Below are positions 783-30,305 of a stretch of 64,000 bases of DNA, one piece after another. The translations under genes and the position numbers were made by a program. The notes under the pieces were generated by a model. The model searched no databases, was not told where the DNA came from, and was given only the letters and a program-made list of their open reading frames with translations. The stretch is taken from assembly GCA_947568835.1 (NCBI GenBank), contig OX387608.1:8842001-8906000 (forward strand), in the 5' to 3' direction. The first letter of the stretch is position 1; each line of letters begins with the position of its first letter. This DNA comes from Protonemura montana. Taxonomy: Eukaryota; Arthropoda; Insecta; Plecoptera; Nemouridae.

Positions 783-3700
783 CCAAAAAAAACATAGAAC
801 AGATAAGATAAAATAACATCAGTCTCCCATGAAAGATTCATCACATTGAGGTAGAGGAAATTATCGACAAAATCGTGTTGCAACCTTAAAATATATAAGT
901 GCATTTGCATCAGCAACCACAAAACCACCCGCCCGCATGTCCACAGCTCGACTCCGCAATGTCTATGACTCCCTTCTCCGACGAGTTCATGGGCGCCAGA
1001 GTTATCAACGTCTACCCCGGAGGCGGCGTCGCTAACGACGACTCACCGTCGGCACAACCGGCCCCGACTGCCGTCTTTGTCAATGTCACCCTTCAGCTGG
1101 AAGAGAACGCCGAGACGGCGCGGCCGGCCGTCAAGCACGACATACAACGCCACCTGCTCGGCGTCATCCATCGGCGAAATAACAACGTCGGGGACAGCGC
1201 CTTGTGGGTGGACAGTCCTCCTGGTTCGGTGTCACAGTTGCAAGGTATGCTGCTCTTGTCTTAAACACTTAAACTATTGATAGTGCGTGCATCGTAAGTT
1301 CTTTCTAAAACCTCGTTAGTGCGTTTATTATTGTAAAAGTACCCCTATTATTTCGGATACGGATACCGTGTATGTATCTTTCAATACAGCGAAGCTTACG
1401 GTATTCTGAGTCTAAAAAAAAAACGATTTTTCCCTCCGTATCAGAGACGAAATGGGACGAAACTTTCAGCTGTTTATAAATACTTATTATTTTTCTTCTG
1501 AAAATATTCTAGTGAGGACAAACTGGTTAGATTTTCTCCCCTATCACGAAGTATTGGTAGCAATACACATTTTGTCGCTGAGATGTCGTTGGATGGGCGT
1601 AGCAAGCAAAGCGAAGACTCGATTTGACTCCTCGGAAACAAATTGTGTTTTTACATGTGTGTTTGTTTGGTAAACAATTGGCCAAACATTTAGACCGACT
1701 CGGATAAAATTTGCAAACACCGTCGAAATAGCAAACAGTGTCCAAATAGCTCAATGGTTCAGAGCAACACCCGCGAAAGGTGGAGATCGGGATTCGAGTC
1801 CGCGTTTGGACATCAATTTTTGAGACGGTTATAGTGTGGTTAATAATAAAATACCGCGCGCATTGCAAGCGTTTGTAATTTAAATAAGATTTCATCCTAA
1901 TCATATCTGATAAGTTTTCTTAACTTATCAGTGAAACAGCCTGTGCTAACCAAAAGAACCGCAGGAAGCATGAAAGGGTACCCCATTCCAAAAAATAACG
2001 ACAAAAGAAAATGCGCCTATCTTTAGCGCGATTCAAATTTGCTGGGCAATGCAAATGACCAACCACCAAAAAACTAACATCCGACGTGTGAATGAACCAT
2101 AATAGAAGTTTTAACTTAGAATTGGTATTTTCTCTCGTTTCAGACATCGACGAGTGCACCAGCCGGGAGCTCAACGACTGTCACGCGGAGGCTACGTGCT
2201 CTAACGTGTTCGGCTCGTTCCGGTGCTCGTGTGTGGAGGGTACGCGTGATCCGTGGGCCGGAAACGTGCATCGCCAAGGGCGCCAGTGCGAGACTTGCGC
2301 GGCCGATCACTGTCACCAACGCGGCCAGTGTCGCTTTGACGCAGCAGGACAACAAGTCTGCTCGTGAGTGCCGGACAAATATAGGATTTTCCGAATTTCC
2401 CTCCGATATCGACCCTCTTTCAAAAAGCAACATTGCTATATTTAATTTTTGAGAAGTTTTTAGAGATCTAAATAATAGAATTCTTCGCGCATCGCAAGCG
2501 TTTACAATTTGATTTAGATTTCACTGCTAGATTTTATACTTTTCCAATGTACCAATTTTCGTGATATTAGCTTGAGATATTGATGTTTACATTAACATCT
2601 TAAACTACTTCCAGCGAAAAGGAAATTTAAGGCCACTGTAGGAGATCACAAATTCATGCTTCCATCCTTTCAAGTATAATCCCTTGCAATTTCTTTGCTA
2701 AATTTGTGAATCTTCCCTGACTCTGGCATTTAAAATCATCTTTCAATTTACCATCGGTTTGTTTATATTGGGCCGAACCTGACAGTACTGCAACGTCAGG
2801 ACGACCCGTGACAGAGGAAGAGCAAGCTCTTATCGCTCCATCGTTTTCCAAAAATCAGCTAAACTTGTAAGCCCACAGTGTGGACTTTACCAGAGTTCAG
2901 GCTGATAAGAACAGATACTACACTTTGATCTTAGCTCAGAGAGCCGAGAAGCGATAACTCTCCATCGGAAGGCGAGTCTTGTATCTAACTAAGGCATTAG
3001 GATCGGTTTTGAGTGTTGACTAGTTATAACGTATGAGAAGTCAGCGCGCTCTAGCGGAGACGGTTGAAACCTGCTAGCACACTGAGATTTTGACCGTCGT
3101 TCACACTGGATAGGCACATCAGCTATTGCACCGAGAATTCAATTCGGTATTAAAGGGGCATTTATCTCGTCATTTAAACATTTATCTACTGCTTTTAATT
3201 ATCCCTACAGTCGCGAGAAGACAAATAAAAAATTCCCTCATCGCCACTTACGTTATTCCGCTTCGGTGTGTATACATATTGCAAAAAATCTATCATAAAT
3301 AACCTTTTTATCTTGCAATAAAAGAAAAAAAAAAAAATCGAACACCAAAAAACCGTAAAATTATTTTCAAGTATATATCAGCAATCTGTCAAAATCGTAC
3401 TGTCCCACAGAGTCCATAATTCTTTGCAAAACAAAACACTTTCACGATGCTGCTCTTTGAAGAAAAAAAGACCAAGCAACCCACATATGTGTGTGTAACC
3501 CATTCCGACCCCCCCCCCCCCCCCCTAACTAACTTATAACTTACCTAACTTCGGCAGTTAAAGATATCTTTCTATATACCATTGGTTAATTTATATTGGG
3601 CCGAACCTGACAGTACTGCAGCGTCAGGACGACCCGTGACAGAGGAAGAGCAAGCTCTTATCGCTCCATCGTTTTCCAAAAATCAGCTAAACTTGTAAGC

Positions 3701-6700
3701 CCACAGTGTGGACTTTATCAGAGTTCAGGCTGATAAGAACAGATACTACACTTTGATCTTAGCTCAGGGAGCCGAGAAGCGATAACTTTCCATCGGAAGG
3801 CGAGTCTTGTCTCAAACTAAGGCATTAGGTTTGGTTTTGAGTGTTGACCAGTTACAACGTATGAGAAGTCAGCGCGCTCTAGCGGAGACGGACTGAACTC
3901 GTCCTACACGCGGTCGTTTTCCTTGCCGTTTAAGCCCCCTGTAGTCACCAACACACAAGACTATGTGCTTAATATGCGATTGCACATTTGCACATTGCAA
4001 ATTTTGAAATTAACATTTGCCGCTGATTTATGTTTACACTTGCGACTTTGGAGCCAAATCTACCACAGGATAATGCTAGATAGAGTTTTTAGGTGTCAAA
4101 TTTTTTGCCGTGGAACTTGATAATACGAAAAAAATAGTAAGGAAAGACTCCTTTTTTTCTATTTCTATTTTTCATCTCTCGTTTGAGAAGTTAATAAATG
4201 AATGTAGAGAAAATAAGTAATCTAACCATAAACCTAACGCAAAGCATTCAACAAATACCAAGCTGGTTCATTCTAGTACAGTTTACGGTCATAATAACGA
4301 CTGCTTATGCTTATTTTAACACCAGGCGACCTACTAATTGACCGGGAACACTACTCCGCTAGTTGCATGTGGCTAACACGTTGTTTCTCTGCACCAGATG
4401 CTCGAGCGGCTTTTACGGGTCTCAGTGCGAGGTTGACGGCGAAGTCCTGGGCGTCGCCATCGGAGCATCCGTCGCTGCTGTCATTATCATTGCCCTCACC
4501 CTTGTCTGTCTCTGCATGTGGAGGTACGTTGCTCCACCCACAGCAAACGATCAAGAGGGATGGGGTGGTTATTTCACGACCCAATTCCTTTTTGAGCCAT
4601 TGTGTCATGTTACCTCTGTTGCCGGCTTGTTTGCTTAGCAGAAAGATTTGCCAGCCCTCTGACTATACCTATAAATTCAGCAGTGAGATAATGGTTTTCT
4701 TGAAAAGTGGTCATGTTTACTAATTATCACCATCTCTCTACCATTCAACAATGCCACTAGACCAGTGCTAAAAAATGCCTGAAGCCTAAAAAACGAATCG
4801 AAACATCACACTCATTCACTTGACCCATAAACAATAACGAAGAGAATTTCCCTCATTACGTAACCTTCTACACTTTCAGTCGTCGTTGGAGTCGTGAACA
4901 GAAATCCGCTACCGGCCCGGGTTCTCCTGTTTTCGGCTATATGGCGGGCAACACAGTCAAGACGCCTCACATGGGCGGTCCACCATACCAGGTCTCAATG
5001 GAGGACAGGCTGCGTTGGGCGCAGATCGCCGACGTCATGGCGCAGGCAAACCATTACGCTGTGAGTATGCTTGTCACAAGGTCACACAGGGTCACAAGGG
5101 TGCATTTTTTTTCAAAGTGTCCAAAAATTGGGACTTAAATGTCTACTGGAACTTTTAACTCCAACTCCTAATATACCGTTATAATTGTATATGTTCAAAA
5201 GGTCTCTCAGAGATGTTACCAGTCTTACTTGTAAGCCAAATATCCATTTTTTTATAAACAGTAAATAATCTGTTTTAAGGAAGTGCCACTCCACTATTTT
5301 TATTATTTTTATTATTTGTCTGTTAGATTTAAGGTCGCTTGACAATCTTTGGTTTATTGGTTGTACCAGATTTGTAAAATATACACACTCTGGTACTCTC
5401 CCACTAACGGCTCCGGTCTCTCTGCCAGCAGCCAGAGCCGGTACCTGGAGGCGGTCCGACTCGTCCTTCGTCTGCAGTGTTTGGCTACCCTTCGTTGACG
5501 CATACAGGACACCTCAGCCATATGGGCACCATGCCGTCTATGCACCACAGCCACATGGGCACGCTAACGCACAGCTTGCATGGTACCATGCAACACGGCA
5601 AGATGCCCCTGCCGCCGGTGCCATTGCCCAGACATAGCTTGCCCCACAATGCACACAGCCTTAATCGGTCACAAGGTATGTACGATTTTAGGTGGAATTG
5701 TGCGTTTGTGTTATGATTGCATTGGGTTTGTTAGGAATAACTAGACCTTCAAAGGAACAGTTATAAGTCTTTGCATAGAACTGATTCAGTTCCTATTTTA
5801 TAATTCAGTGCGTAGTGGAATAAAACTGACGAACGTAAAAGAGAATTACCACACAATCACTCAGTTGCCCTTCACTTTCAGTCCTTATAATTACTAAGAA
5901 AGGTTTGGCAGTTTATCACAATGTTACTTGAATGAAGGATATTTTACTCATTTACTTTTCTTCTGTAATCTTATCAATCCATTTTCCAGCCTTTTGCTAA
6001 CTTTTCTCTTCATTTACTCTAATGAAGGTTTGGCATGGAAGCAATGATTTGCTTCAGAATCAATCAATTACCCTTGGTTTTTCTACTTTAACTCAGAAAG
6101 TAGTTTTGCATTTGAAACTTAAATAACATTGTAGATTGGTTTCAAGAACAGAAAGCCTAGAATGTAGCATGATTTATAGCCAAGTAACTTACTACCAAGT
6201 GGAAAAGACCTGACAACACTTAATGGTAAGGTTCTGGAAACAGAAGCAATATGCTCTCGGTTGTCCGGTACTGTATTGCTCACCGGTTCCCGCTATGGTT
6301 GCAGCTGCAATGAGCATCCACGGAGGAGGCTACAGCATCCATGGAGGCGGAACATACAATCCCCACGCTGGGATGCGAACACCTGACACCAAGAAGGCGT
6401 TCGACTCCAGCTCAAGCGACGAGGAGGATCGCACGGACCTGCTCGGCAGGAACTTCCACGTTCCGCGACCTAAGAGTCGGTCGTCAGTAGCGGTACGTTT
6501 ACGGATCTCTTAGTGCTACTTGTCAAAAGGGAAAGCGTAGTTGGTTGGTTAATTGGCTTCAGCAACAGTTGCAAGAGGTTAACTAAGTGTATTCTTTACT
6601 ATACTGTAACTGAGGTACTAAATGGTGTGGTCGATGTCACCTGGAGCTTGAATCTCACAAGGTCAGGTTAAGAAAAATATATTTTAGTATTTAAACTATA

Positions 6701-23600: not shown

Positions 23601-26597
23601 AAAAAAAATGTTATGTGGATTATACATAGGTCCTAGAACTTCAAACTAGATTTACAGGTAATTAAACATCTAGGTTGCAAATGGTGATTTATGTGGTCAA
23701 TCATTTAAAAATACTGGCTTTTGCTAATTGGTCACGAGCACCGTAACAATATATTTTTAGTTCGAACTGTACTGTTTTTAAACTTTCAAACCCTCTGCCC
23801 AAAGTGTAAGTGTAAGCTGATTAGGAACTGTGGTGTAAAACTGAGTAATATATAATATTAACACATTTTTGTTTAACTCCACCTTAAAAAGTGCATCAAT
23901 TTGAACTGTGTTAAACAAACTGTTAAAATTTTGCCAGAATTTAAGTATGACATCTATTTATTTCGTGATCTTGGCAACAGCTTCACAAGCAGAAAGATAA
24001 GAGTTCATCAAAATATCCCAAAGTTACTGAAAGTTTCTTCACCTGGGCAAGTCTTGCAAAGCATTCCGCGAGAGATTGCACCAGGAGAGCTTAGCGAGGT
24101 CTGCGAGATGGGACGAGTCTATCTTTGCGATGAGGTTGCCCGAGAGGTCGATGGCCTCTGTGTCTCGGAGTCCTTTGAACTGGGCCCGTTTCAGCGCTGT
24201 GATGCGATTCCCGGAAAGATCCAAGGACTTGAGACGCTTCAACGGTGCGAAAAGGTCTGCCGGTATGTCGCCAACCTGTCGCAGAGGGGTGTAGATGAGA
24301 CATTTTTTAGTCAGTCAGATGATGTTAAAAATTAGATTAGGTTAAAGGTTTAGGTTGTAAGAACTCTTTGCAATGGTTGAGTGGTTGTTTTCAGAGCCAT
24401 GGTTTGATTTTGTGATGTGTTTTTTCGGATATGCTCGTGCATTGAAGAGGATTGCGGCCCTCTTTGCAATATGTTTTTCTTTGGTTTCTTAACTCCAAAT
24501 CACATTTTCTACCCAGTAGCACCAGCATCAATTGAATATTTAATATAATTATAAGAAAAATATTGTTAACCTGTAAGTAATAAATTAAACTAAAATAAAA
24601 AAAAATAAAACTGTTAAAACTCTGGTAAGGACACTTCAAACAATAACTTACAGTGTCTGTCTAGACATCTCACAGAATATAGGCTTCTAGAAAAGGAAGA
24701 CCTGTCAGCTAAGTATCAACATCATCTTACCAATCCATTGGAAACTGTGAAGCGTTCCAGCCGTGACGGAAGCGAGCTGTTAGAGAAGATGCTGGACGGC
24801 AGGGAGCTGATCTCGTGGTGGGAGAGTGAGAGAACCGTCAGGTTGCCCAGAATCTACAGGAAAGGTGCAACAGAGTGGGTGAAGACATGTTTTAGCATTG
24901 ATAAGGATGTGATTTACTAACTTAACTCAGTATTGAACTGCAAATTAAAATAATATAAATATCCAGAATTGAGTTTTGTGTGGTTGAAAATGGTATTTGT
25001 TTTAATATTCCTGCAAGCACTATTGTGCCTTGACTTCTCTCTCAATTTTGGAAAAATACTTTTTAATTTCTTTCATTACAAGTCCTAAAGCTTAAACACA
25101 ATCCTAGTTTTCCAGCTAATCATTTAGAATCAAACAGTTCATCGAGCTAATATATTTCAAAATACAATCAGAATAGTATATATTTTTTAAATTTGTGTCA
25201 TATTTACGCTTAAAAATCATGTCATAGATAAATAGCTCATTAGGCTGAACCATTATTATGTATTTAGAACTATTTTCATGAAACATTGTAAAGTGTCGAC
25301 TGCTACCACTAGCATTACACAAGAGGGAAAGACATGCCAGCTTCATTCAATCATCAATCAGCACTTTTTGAGACGGGTCTATTTTATAAAGGAGCACAAT
25401 TTTATAAACAACTTCCTAAAAATTGTATTAATGTCAACAGCATGAAAATATTTAAAAGAAATGTTAAATTGTTTGTAATAGAAAAAGAATTTTACCATTG
25501 GACTGACTACAACCAAAAATATTAGATTGGTGCCTTTTATGTACATTTTTGTTATTAGTTGCTCTATATTTCATTTTTAAGTTTGACGAAGCATAACATG
25601 TAATATTGTATACTGCGAATAAAACAATTTATATTATTATTATTATTATTATCCGACTGACCTGCATGGCAATAGCGGGAAAGTCCAGTAGTCGCGAGTG
25701 CAGAATATGCAGCTCGTTGAGTGTCTGGTTTGTGCCGAGAAAGACTCCTGGCTCGACAGACGTCAGCGGCGTGTGCTCGATTCGCAAAACACGCACTCGC
25801 ACAGTGTGCAGCAAGCTGCCGTGGAGACGACCTGGAACAATGGGGCATGAATACAGACGCATGTTTTGGGGCAATCGGGTTTCATTTGGGTTATGCATGG
25901 TTATATGCAAGGCTTATGCAAGGTTTTTCCAAAATCTTAACTCCTATTTGAAGTGTTCCAATAACGTGAAGTGATTCAGATTTTCTTATTGGTAAAACTG
26001 GGCTTTATTGACTAACTGACTTTTTTAATTTTTTTTTTTTAATTATCAGTCAAAAAGGTTGTTAAACAATACAAAATTTACTAAAAAAAATTTCTTGTGC
26101 TCTGGATAGCTATAAGTTCGAATTATTTTAGCACCAAACTGTAAAAATTTGTAGTACTAACTACAGGGATACTTGGTAAGTTTATGTGTTTATTAATTAT
26201 TTTTTTCAATGTCATTTGAGCACTTGTTTAAAACATGATATGCTCGTAGTACATTTACAAAGTTTACAAACGTACTTTCTACAATTAAAAGGGTACCTAG
26301 CAGCATCAATATAACGTTAACAATTCAAACCAGGAAGCCAAAATTACCAATCTGACACCGCGAGATGGTCAACTTCTCAACAGGCATCCCTGCGGCCCCA
26401 AGGTTAGCTAATGCAACTCCCAGCGATGCCAGGTTGGCGTTGTCACAGAGAACCTCGACACCAGTGTCCCCTGGGGCGACACACTGGCATGGGAAGATGG
26501 CATTGGGCGACAGCGGGCACCGATAGCGCGGTCCCGGCGCAATGTAGACGGCGTGAGTCACCGCAAAGAGGGCGGCAAACACGACTAGGAGGCGCAT
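17691..26597 (-). CDS. Leucine-rich-repeat surface protein, artichoke/chaoptin type
   Basis: Fourteen exons splice in phase to about 1070 residues: 26348-26597, 25662-25831, 24731-24853, 24043-24275, 23343-23589, 22675-22929, 22356-22560, 22038-22149, 21378-21675, 20773-20956, 19906-20202, 19156-19413, 18681-18915, 17691-18036. The start (MRLLVVFAALFAVTHA) is a clear signal peptide. A cysteine-bearing LRR N-cap (FPCQC, then VEVLCDNANLASL) follows, then a long run of typical LRRs (LxxLDLSxNxI, often DLSHN), then an LRR C-cap (NSLRCDCQLRPLRRWL). A beta-rich, possibly FN3-like segment precedes a hydrophobic C-terminal tail (ALAMLLAVLWLV) typical of GPI signals. The N-terminus resembles insect artichoke more than Drosophila chaoptin, as I recall them. 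Such proteins act in adhesion or apical matrix. A splice acceptor at 26603-26604 shows a further 5' UTR exon upstream. Confidence 0.9.
18350..18475 (+). repeat. SINE family A copy
   Basis: The copy retains a B-box-like GGGGTTCAAGTTCCC, then GGCACCAATTTTTGTG, then CGCACATTGCAAGCGTTTG and ATTTAAATAAGATTTCA, matching the copy at 1740-1905. The tRNA-like 5' half is degraded. It lies antisense in the last intron of the LRR gene. Confidence 0.6.
25330..25655 (+). mobile_element. 3' end of a LINE (non-LTR retrotransposon) with ATT-repeat tail
   Basis: A 63-codon open stretch (25334-25525) reads like the C-terminal end of insect non-LTR reverse transcriptases (SALFETGLFYKGAQFYKQLP, then FKRNVKLFVIEKEFY). 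It is followed by a short 3' UTR with AATAAA and ends in (ATT)n at about 25632-25652. The 5' part of the element is not recognisable, so it looks like a 5'-truncated copy. It lies antisense in the intron between LRR exons 25662-25831 and 24731-24853, its repeat tail ending about ten bases from the splice donor. Confidence 0.65.
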
Positions 26598-27359: not shown

Positions 27360-27481
27360 TGGACGAGTTAAGTCCGTCTCCGCTAGAGCGCGCTGACTTC
27401 TCATACGTTATAACTAGTCAACACTCAAAACCAAACCTAATGTCTTAGTTAGAGACAAGACTCGCCTTCCGTTGGAAAGTT
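27360..27481 (+). promoter_or_regulatory. Putative snRNA promoter of U2 copy c
   Basis: This is the conserved 110-base block upstream of the U2 start, with the same TCTCCGCTAGAGCGCGCTGA and TCATACGTTATAACTAGTCA cores as the other copies. The shared region begins near GGACGAGTTAAG, as in the promoter of copy b. Confidence 0.5.
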
Positions 27482-27669
27482 ATCGCTTCTCGGCTCCCTG
27501 AGCTAAGATCAAAGTGTAGTATCTGTTCTTATCAGCCTGAACTCTGATAAAGTCCACACTGTGGGCTTACAAGTTTAGCTGATTTTTGGAAAACGATGGA
27601 GCGATAAGAGCTTGCTCTTCCTCTGTCACGGGTCGTCCTGACGCTGCAGTACTGTCAGGTTCGGCCCAA
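27482..27669 (+). ncRNA. U2 snRNA-like gene, copy c
   Basis: This is the first unit of the right tandem dimer. It begins ATCGCTTCTCGGCTCCCTGA, has the GTGTAGTATCTGTTC branch-recognition segment, closed stems IIa and IIb, the Sm site GATTTTTGG, the AAGAGCTTGCTCTT hairpin and stem-loop IV with GCTGCAGTAC. Its partners in the other locus run on the minus strand, so the two dimers are inverted relative to each other. About 20 bases past the 3' end a GATTGAAAGAT motif resembles a snRNA 3' box. Confidence 0.78.
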
Positions 27670-28175
27670 TATAAATTAACCAACGGTAGATTGAAAGATT
27701 ACTTAAGATGTCGAAGTTAGGAAAGTTAGAAGTTAGTTAGGGGGGGGGGGGGGGGAACCGCTTGTGGCTACACACACATGTGTATAGCCTGGTATTTTTT
27801 TCATCAAAGAGCAGCATCATGTAAGTGTTTCGGGACAGTAAGGTTTTGACAGATTCCTGTAATATATTTGAAAGTAAATTTACGGTTATTTTTGGTGTTC
27901 GAAAATCGTTTTTTTCTTTTATTGCAAGATAAAAAGGTTATTTACGATTAGAGTTTTTGCAATATGTATACACACCGAAGCGGAATAACGTTAGTGGAGA
28001 TAAGGACATTTTTTATTTGTCTTCTCACGACTGTAGGGATAATTAAAAGCAGTAGATAAATGTTTAAATGAAGAGATAAATGCCCCTTTTAATACCGAAT
28101 TGAATTCTCGGTGCAATAGCTGATGTGCCTATCCAGTGTGAACGACGGTCAAAATCTCAGTGTGCTAGCAAGTTT
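27670..28175. repeat. Spacer of the right U2 tandem dimer
   Basis: This spacer matches the reverse complement of the spacer at 3071-3595, including a homopolymer G run (27740-27755), ATTGCAAGATAAAAAGG and GGATAATTAAAAGCAGTAG. The two spacers differ by scattered substitutions and small length changes, so the duplication is old enough to have drifted outside the RNA genes. Confidence 0.7.
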
Positions 28176-28286
28176 CAACCGTCTCCGCTAGAGCGCGCTG
28201 ACTTCTCATACGTTATAACTGGTCAACACTCAAAACCGATCCTAATGTCTTAGTTAGAGACAAGACTCGCCTTCCGTTGGAAAGTT
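28176..28286 (+). promoter_or_regulatory. Putative snRNA promoter of U2 copy d
   Basis: Conserved block upstream of copy d. Its left border (CGTCTCCGCTAGAG) marks the start of the tandem repeat unit, because the sequence before it differs from that before copy c. Confidence 0.5.
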
Positions 28287-28474
28287 ATCGCTTCTCGGCT
28301 CCCTGAGCTAAGATCAAAGTGTAGTATCTGTTCTTATCAGCCTGAACTCTGATAAAGTCCACACTGTGGGCTTACAAGTTTAGCTGATTTTTGGAAAACG
28401 ATGGAGCGATAAGAGCTTGCTCTTCCTCTGTCACGGGTCGTCCTGACGCTGCAGTACTGTCAGGTTCGGCCCAA
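28287..28474 (+). ncRNA. U2 snRNA-like gene, copy d
   Basis: This is the second unit of the right dimer, 805 bp after copy c and nearly identical to it through the RNA-coding region. All helices of the U2 fold can form. After a short shared A-rich stretch and ATGGTA, the downstream sequence differs from the other copies, so the duplicated block ends there. Confidence 0.78.
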
Positions 28475-29263
28475 TATAAACAAACTAATGGTACCCAATA
28501 TAAGTGTATAAATTGGACAGGAAAAACTGGTGAATTATTTTACTGCCCGCATGCTACAAAATTTAAAATAGACTCTAACCATTGCATCCAATGTAAAGTA
28601 GGCGGCTTAATTAGGACAATTTTTAGTTTCTTTAGATTTGCATTGGGTTGAGAACAATTTTCCCGCAAAAATCAGTTGTCAGGAAAAGTCTGAATGGAAA
28701 AAATCGAAATGAAATTGAACAGCCGAAAAGTTCTATATCTGGGAAGTGCCTCGTTGGGCTTAGTGAATGCAATTACAGTTCTGTTGTAAATAAGCGTAAT
28801 TTTTTTATTTTATTTTAATCGCAAATAGGGCTAGGGGCCCTTTTGCTTCAGAACAATCAGAGGTGTCTTAAAACTTGCATCGAAGTAGGATCAGGCGAAC
28901 AAACTCGAACAAAAAATAAACACATCGTTGTTTTATAAATGGAGGATTCACTTCTATCATAAATCATTATTTTGCTACCTACAGACTAATCACCCATCCA
29001 AAATAATTCTCCTGAAATGTTACTTAACCTGAGTGATCCCAAAATACCAGCATTTCGATGCCAATACCTGAGCCCTACAAACAACGTCTCAACATTCCTT
29101 CTCTTGAACGAATTAGAATGACCAATGTACCTAAATTAGTATAATCATAACAAAAGTTGATACGTTTGAGTTTTGATGTATTTCATGGTGATTAATGACG
29201 CACTTTTCTATCTGTGGTTTAATTGATGAGCGTAGCGAGCGGAACGAAATCTCGAATTTGTAT

Positions 29264-29341: not shown

Positions 29342-30305
29342 TACTATATAAATATACCATTATTATTATTAATTTATCATATTATATTACATATATATAT
29401 TTTTTATCTCTACTACCTACTAAGTCAGGATTGCAAAGTCATATCATCTGTGCAATCATCTTTTCGGCAAATGTTCCTTAGCACTTAGGCTCACACAAAT
29501 ACTATGTAATTGTACGCAGCATTAAATTAATAAAATAAATAAATCACTTGTGTGTGTGTTTTTTTTAGTTTGTTTTTCGCTTTTTTGTTGTCGCTCTAGC
29601 GGCCAAACGCCTCCTCCGCTTGGAACGAAATTTGTAGAGCACATGTTTGTGTTCTCAACTCGATCTCCATGCGTTTTTCAACAATATCGGTTGAACAGTT
29701 TTAAAACTATTCAAAATTTACGAAAATATTCATATTTTCTATAATTGCTTTGGAGTTGTACCGCCGAAAGCGTTTAATATTTTTTCACCAAACTTTGCAG
29801 AGATGTGAAATGCATTTAAATTAAGTAGTTGTGAAGTTTTTGAGCCCGTTTGTGTTCTTTCTATTTTAATTAAAAAACTGTCTGGTTTACATTTTTCAAC
29901 TTTGGCTGTATTGCTTTGATCGATAATCCATACCATGGATTAACTTCACTTTTAATTATCCCAAAATATCGCTACAATATCTTACAACTCAATGTTTTTT
30001 GCGTACGCGAAGCCCAAGGTTTAGCAAATGCATGTTTGAATACTCTATGGATATACGTTCGAATTCAGCTCGACTTTATGACATTGACCATGAACGCAAG
30101 TCGCCTACATTAGCTACCCAATGTTTACAAATTGCCAACCCATTCCCAACCAATCGTTCATCACATTTACAAACGTTCGTCGAACCCTTGTTCATCTTCA
30201 AACTAGCTTCCCGTTTGGCAAGTTTCGCAAACCGACCAAAACCATCTAAAACCCACACTTTACAATTAGCGGCCTCCATGCGTACGGTTCACCACCACAG
30301 GTCTG

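Follow-up and report, generated by a model that had tools for sequence, protein, structure and literature searches.

The reported concerted evolution of the small nuclear RNA (snRNA) families has made lasting functional divergence among their members look unlikely (PMC4291461, citing earlier work). The same source describes snRNA isoforms in Drosophila, mouse and other species, with several U2 genes in sequence classes per species. U2 genes are also the target of Utopia, a retrotransposon whose arthropod families make no target duplication and leave more disrupted than intact U2 copies; the persistence of a parasite that destroys an essential gene of low copy number was stated as a puzzle (PMC4640811; this and the other papers are cited for the passages concerned). 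Here we analyzed a 64,000-nucleotide stretch of the Protonemura montana genome (assembly GCA_947568835.1, contig OX387608.1, positions 8,842,001 to 8,906,000; hereafter the window) together with the U2 loci elsewhere in the assembly. The window contains four U2 snRNA genes that differ strongly from the canonical U2 gene of the same genome. Judged from sequence, they are probably (about 0.72) working-type U2 genes of an old divergent class that supplies most of the U2 of the species and, by a weaker line of argument, may offer poor targets to a Utopia-type element. The function of the window genes as U2 appears well supported. That the divergent class is the species' main U2 is plausible, and the basis for this is gene number, nine of the ten loci with an intact core being divergent.

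Divergent and canonical U2 genes

All four complete U2 genes of the window matched the U2 family (Rfam RF00004, gathering score 46) over model positions 1–192 with 150.9–153.0 bits. A preliminary description of this DNA had reported a tandem U2 dimer inside an intron, and two full-length genes were indeed found there on the minus strand, 828 bp apart: the first member of dimer 1 at 3591..3783 (150.9 bits) and the second at 2763..2955 (153.0 bits, E 1.2e-31). Further members of the same class, class B, form a second dimer on the plus strand at 27482..27674 and 28287..28479 (150.9 bits each), and the RNAs of these two copies are identical (0 differences). The second dimer, the retrotransposon described below and the finding that it is the canonical class that suffered damage go beyond the preliminary description. 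A third U2 pair lies on the same contig (C11:8771325 and 8772151), about 70 kb from the window pairs. The spacers of all three pairs align, which indicates that the pairs are copies of one dimer.

The Rfam search of the genome for U2 listed 40 matches, with the best 46 of 12,325 candidates scored. Since family searches score the best candidates only, we added a DNA search with one class B gene (24 of 24 candidates scored), a stem I pattern and a branch-core pattern. The 29-base branch-recognition core was found at ten loci when up to three mismatches were allowed, and all ten carry it without a mismatch. The canonical class is represented by a single gene (L001, C2:4955912, 180.6 bits), class A by three on contig C2 (L002, L003 and L006; 153.0–157.2 bits) and class B by six on C11 (150.9–154.9 bits). 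The divergent stem I pattern (up to two mismatches) also gave ten loci, namely the nine divergent genes and a decayed A-like copy, L019, which scores 99.7 bits and has lost nested pairs and its promoter core. The suggestion of a distinct variant class is thus borne out. A canonical locus elsewhere and covariance scores far below those of true U2 genes had both been named as part of a case against function; the canonical locus exists, whereas the scores of the divergent genes (150.9–157.2 bits) are at least 104.9 bits above the cut-off.

In hand-gapped alignments, the canonical gene differs from class A (L002) by 42 substitutions and four gap columns and from class B (the 27482 copy) by 43 substitutions and two gap columns; A and B are separated by 29 substitutions and two gap columns. 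MAFFT gave identities of 77.5% for canonical and A, 77.0% for canonical and B, and 86.5% for A and B. At sites where A and B agree and differ from the canonical gene, the Rfam consensus matches the canonical base at 15, the A/B base at eight and neither at five. As the consensus sides with both groups, the canonical and the divergent lineages have both changed. A working-type class about 77% identical to the canonical gene of the same genome runs against the expectation of concerted evolution.

The same genome yielded nine matches to U1, five to U4, 11 to U5, two to U6 (one full) and one to U12. A U12-like role of the divergent genes was rejected, because the genome has its own U12 (113.9 bits).

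Structure of the divergent RNAs

The divergent RNAs share with the Rfam U2 family all model stems, the U6-pairing 5′ end, the GUAGUA branch region, an Sm-type site and the 3′ domain. They depart from it in remade stems I and IIb and, in class B, an altered stem IV loop, with the 42–43 substitutions between classes found within one genome. The stem I, IIb and IV sequences quoted in the preliminary description are present as given. The apex of stem I was remade with one extra base and stem IIb was largely rewritten. Stem IV (CCTGAC/GTCAGG), by contrast, is no rewritten helix as had been claimed: it is close to the Rfam consensus CCUGGC/GCCAGG, and the canonical gene of the genome departs there instead. 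The claim that the U2 core is kept held for the 5′ end, the branch region and the Sm site of class B and did not fully hold for the U2B″ loop, where B is changed at one or two bases. Nucleotides (nt) 1–13, the U6-pairing 5′ region, are the same in the canonical gene, A and B, and the Sm site of the window class is GAUUUUUGG, as in the canonical gene. The stem IV loop (U2B″/SNF) of class A reads AUUGCAG in three of three genes, two of them with one later change.

To relate the substitutions to the fold, we followed the nested pairs of stems I, IIa, IIb, III and IV through the hand-gapped alignment, which leans towards the structure, and compared them with 20,000 random placements of the changes, a null that ignores mutation bias. 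All nine divergent genes keep 43–44 of the 45 pairs (38 in L019). From canonical to B, six of the 45 pairs are changed on both sides and kept, six are changed on one side and kept, none is lost and one is unpaired in both. Random placement lost 7.7 pairs on average and never reached zero, and six double changes were reached twice. From canonical to A (L002) we counted eight double changes and one lost pair against null means of 1.4 and 9.8; neither value was reached in the 20,000 placements. Between A and B again no pair is lost (0 of 20,000 placements). The step from L002 to L019 has no double change and five lost pairs, as in the null, where 6,648 of 20,000 placements lose as few. L019 thus behaves like random placement and shows what decay looks like; its folding is no better than that of shuffled sequences.

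Stem IIc, the alternative partner of stem IIa, pairs at 11 of 13 positions in the canonical gene and in six of six B genes, and at 10 of 13 in three of three A genes. Among the eight loop pairs of IIc, one with a gap, the comparison of canonical with B showed three double changes and one single change, all kept, and no loss. We folded the first 147 bases of one sequence per class; IIc is part of the best fold in L001 and in the 27482 copy.

Promoters, 3′ boxes and flanks

A proximal sequence element (PSE) core, CACTCA, lies at -60 of each window gene: at 3010..3015 and 3838..3843 on the minus strand for the genes starting at 2955 and 3783, and at 27422..27427 and 28227..28232 on the plus strand for those starting at 27482 and 28287. 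It follows a pattern common to other snRNA genes of the genome. The CACTC core stands at -60/-59 in ten of ten complete U2 genes, the nine divergent and the canonical one. Of 26 other matches, 20 carry the pattern [AC]ACT[ACT][AG] at -60 or one base to either side (U1 8/9, U5 8/11, U4 4/5, U12 0/1); U6 with its fragment and all U2 matches of interrupted or satellite type were not part of this set.

Each of the nine divergent genes is followed by a box ending in GGTA, and boxes resembling this U2 3′ box also follow U4, several U1 genes and the canonical U2. In the window the box ends in TGGTA at 2749..2762 and 3577..3590 (minus strand, genes 2955 and 3783) and at 28480..28493 (plus strand, gene 28287). 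The box of gene 27482 (27675..27688, plus strand) ends in CGGTA; it was read from the flank, being one base off the searched pattern. A further upstream element, CCGCTAGAGCG, stands at about -100 at 3047..3057 and 3875..3885 (minus strand, dimer 1) and at 27380..27390 and 28185..28195 (plus strand, dimer 2). Its core CGCTAGAGCG is present at the loci of all nine divergent genes and L019 and absent from the L001 locus. A fifth perfect copy of CCGCTAGAGCG stands alone at 29592–29602.

Homology between the class A loci L002 and L003 spans -122 to +13 only and then stops; in the neighbours L003 and L006 it is longer, from -207 to +79. The latter two differ at two of 193 gene positions and at 45 of 152 flanking positions. 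Dimers 1 and 2 differ at three of 386 positions in the genes and 56 of 486 in the spacer, and dimer 2 and the third pair at 5/386 and 55/483, respectively. Part of this contrast could also be mimicked by gene conversion restricted to the genes. The paired changes, the promoter core, the 3′ box and the contrast between genes and spacers agree with the earlier proposal of selection on a working RNA and not decay.

A Utopia-type element in the canonical U2 genes

At eight loci (L011–L018) we found canonical U2 nt 38–193, with zero or one difference from L001. Each of these 3′ halves follows the same type of 3′ tail (somewhat different in L011), and an element protein match lies just upstream. Three shorter 3′ pieces (L020–L022, nt 95–193) and the satellite matches were not counted among these eight disrupted copies. 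At C2:27970030, a canonical promoter with U2 nt 1–36 is separated from nt 38–193 by a 1.65-kb insert, which contains an open frame of 462 residues. At two more loci nt 1–31 runs into the 5′ end of the element and the 3′ half follows about 4.7 kb further. Altogether four promoter-bearing canonical 5′ ends were found; three are interrupted and the fourth is L001. The differing element lengths (1,649 bp, 2,358 bp and about 4.67 kb) and one different 3′ tail suggest three to four independent insertion events.

The element protein matched RVT_1 (Pfam, E 1.6e-29), and its closest solved relatives are R2 retrotransposon proteins, for the reverse transcriptase (4.2e-61) as well as the C-terminus (8.4e-24). 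The 462-residue C-terminal part has no Pfam match; a restriction-like endonuclease (RLE) motif was read there by eye. We found 35 genomic matches to the protein: 34 on C2, either inside the canonical clusters or no more than about 1.1 Mb away from them, one weak match (25% identity) on C4 and none on C11. An initial reading of the U2 3′ "chimeras" L011–L018 as spliced leaders was dropped, because their upstream part is the 3′ end of the retrotransposon.

The features of the element point to a Utopia-type retrotransposon of the non-long terminal repeat (non-LTR) kind, the assignment against other NeSL/R2 lineages resting on the target site. Utopia as published (PMC4640811) likewise has an R2-group reverse transcriptase, an R2-like C-terminus, insertion behind about nt 37 and U2 sequence after its 3′ end; as here, no target duplication is seen and disrupted U2 copies outnumber intact ones, in our case within the canonical class. 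In Phytophthora the downstream U2 starts at nt 39 (PMC4640811), one base off the nt 38 found here, where a T at the border is ambiguous. Unlike in the published Utopia cases, nearly all intact U2 genes here belong to a sequence class without an insertion; the main text of PMC4640811 contains no word beginning "variant".

The region C2:27965001–28075000 (L059–L069) contains a 72-bp satellite that stems from the 5′ end of U2, with 852 profile matches at E up to 1 in the 110 kb. Its units keep the stem I sequence, GTAGTA occurs in 0 of 218 exact 72-bp units, and the satellite abuts the 5′ end of the element at two copies. U2-derived satellites have been reported from Ciona (PMC4640811). U5 genes lie near the canonical U2 clusters (C2:3925285, 4126240, 4961512, 28030132 and 28067190), so that duplication may have involved entire snRNA clusters.

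Divergent copies without insertions

Interruptions were found in none of the ten divergent copies (the nine genes plus L019) and in eight of nine canonical copies (Fisher 1.2e-4; the copies are not independent). Two U2-like fragments, on C12 (nt 9–135, 83% identity) and C16 (nt 101–193, 80%), were left out of the ten divergent copies and counted in neither class; the C12 match crosses the insertion site unbroken, and the C16 match begins beyond the site and is uninformative. We consider the sparing of the divergent class by Utopia as suggestive and not proven.

The insertion site, between nt 37 and 38, lies within a block of 34 bases (nt 20–53) that is identical in the ten intact genes. Divergence starts at -24 to -19 upstream of the site, at the stem I apex with its added base, and on the downstream side at +17 in A and +18 in B. 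For the Bombyx R2 protein, nicking of a mutated target is recovered through the upstream motif at -34 to -22, and a zinc finger is placed at -23 to -18, with one extra base of spacing tolerated and not more (PMC10499050). The stem I change therefore falls within the zone that Bombyx R2 reads upstream of the cut. The analogy is weakened by the fact that R2 would tolerate the added base alone, and Utopia has other N-terminal domains than R2 (PMC4640811, PMC13188248).

Escape from Utopia would be a plausible reason for the divergent class. Since the insertion site is the branch-recognition core of U2 itself, an escape from Utopia could not proceed by changing the cut site. The stem I apex and many positions from +17 onwards would have been remade instead, with paired changes keeping the fold. 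A full account of this kind, in which a retrotransposon drove the divergence, splicing came to run mainly on the resistant U2 and the canonical cluster became the refuge of the parasite, appears to us unlikely. In the literature looked at we met no report of a Utopia-resistant U2 class, though no search was aimed directly at that question; in the passages of PMC13188248 concerned, "resistant", "escape" and "target site variant" occur 0 times. If the account were true, an essential RNA gene would have been driven to diverge by a retrotransposon that targets it, and the divergent set would perhaps be parasite-proof. It also suggests a possible answer to the puzzle of Utopia, namely that the host may keep a second U2 set which the parasite does not use.

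Weighing the explanations

On the favoured reading, the divergent RNAs would be made and assembled as Sm small nuclear ribonucleoproteins (snRNPs). With the changes located outside the branch-pairing core, such an RNA should still pair with branch sites and U6, and nine of ten genes would supply most of the U2. On weaker grounds, because these changes lie on both sides of the insertion core, where target reading by RLE-type elements takes place, the divergent genes may offer Utopia a poor target, and this in turn might have helped them to replace the canonical set.

Several observations weigh against this reading. The single canonical gene could be highly expressed, or the assembly may lack intact copies of the canonical class. 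Dimer 1 and the third pair show no rate contrast between genes and spacer (6/386 against 13/507, p 0.36), and the two double changes between A and B are not unusual (1,397 of 20,000 placements). In class A, IIc keeps two double changes, two of its loop pairs are lost in L002, and IIc is missing from the best L002 fold (first 147 bases); the Sm site, GGUUUUUUGG, has U for A and is altered at its border. The stem IV loop of B has G instead of A at its first base in six of six genes and also C instead of U at the second in three of six (3783, 27482 and 28287). As for the escape, element copies c2 and c3 share 99.9% identity across 3,759 bp, so that duplicates inflate the eight disrupted loci, and with three or four events and half of the targets canonical the chance of sparing is 0.125 or 0.06.

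Neutral partition is possible, short of even odds. Two lineages at separate sites would have ceased to exchange sequence and drifted under structural constraint, and Utopia would have spared one of them by chance, clustering or chromatin. This would suit the location of A and B, each away from the canonical clusters, and a number of independent insertions of perhaps only three or four. The confinement of 34 of 35 element matches to C2, in or near the canonical clusters, could then mean a local preference, yet class A also lies on C2, at a distance of 2.5 to 4.1 Mb from the intact canonical copy, and carries no insertion. A lasting partition is also at odds with reports of concerted evolution in snRNA families, whose groups can usually be recognised only within a genus (PMC4291461).

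The element at about -100, common to the divergent genes and absent at L001, raises another explanation. The divergent genes may be co-regulated and serve as stage- or tissue-specific U2 isoforms, e.g. embryonic or germline, beside a dominant canonical U2, with Utopia unrelated. Switching of snRNA isoforms is documented in Drosophila and mouse; however, Drosophila U2 paralogs vary at four positions only (PMC4291461), as opposed to the 42–43 substitutions and about 77% identity here. Because a minor isoform would not be expected to occupy nine of ten intact loci, we regard this as rather unlikely.

The idea that the divergent genes are recently silenced relics heading to decay, which the changed loop IV bases of B and the decayed L019 might suggest, is very improbable: none of the nine divergent genes lacks the promoter core or the 3′ box, the branch region is free of mismatches in all of them, and a pseudogene reading was rejected on the kept pairs, these signals and the gene and spacer rates.

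Setting of the dimers and further observations

Dimer 1 lies antisense in an intron of a plus-strand host gene (about 2364–4397), delimited by GT/AG splice signals and a reading frame that were read by eye. The preceding exon encodes an EGF_CA domain (2146–2361, Pfam E 1e-7), and the downstream exon has no Pfam match. A leucine-rich repeat (LRR) gene was taken to start at a minus-strand ATG near 26597, and dimer 2 is situated about 0.9 kb upstream of this ATG. A tRNA-Ser (CGA) gene at 1739–1814 is found in what was read as another intron of the host gene of dimer 1.

Outside the window, a weak match to 5S rRNA (45.6 bits against a cut-off of 38; positions 2167–2287 of L002, minus strand) adjoins one class A U2 gene. 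A COX1 copy at C4:5760925–5762262 scores the same as the mitochondrial copy (C34), and is either a recent nuclear copy or an assembly mix-up. Among the U1 matches, L041 and L042 are divergent (85.4 and 70.8 bits), and both are changed in the end that pairs with the 5′ splice site.

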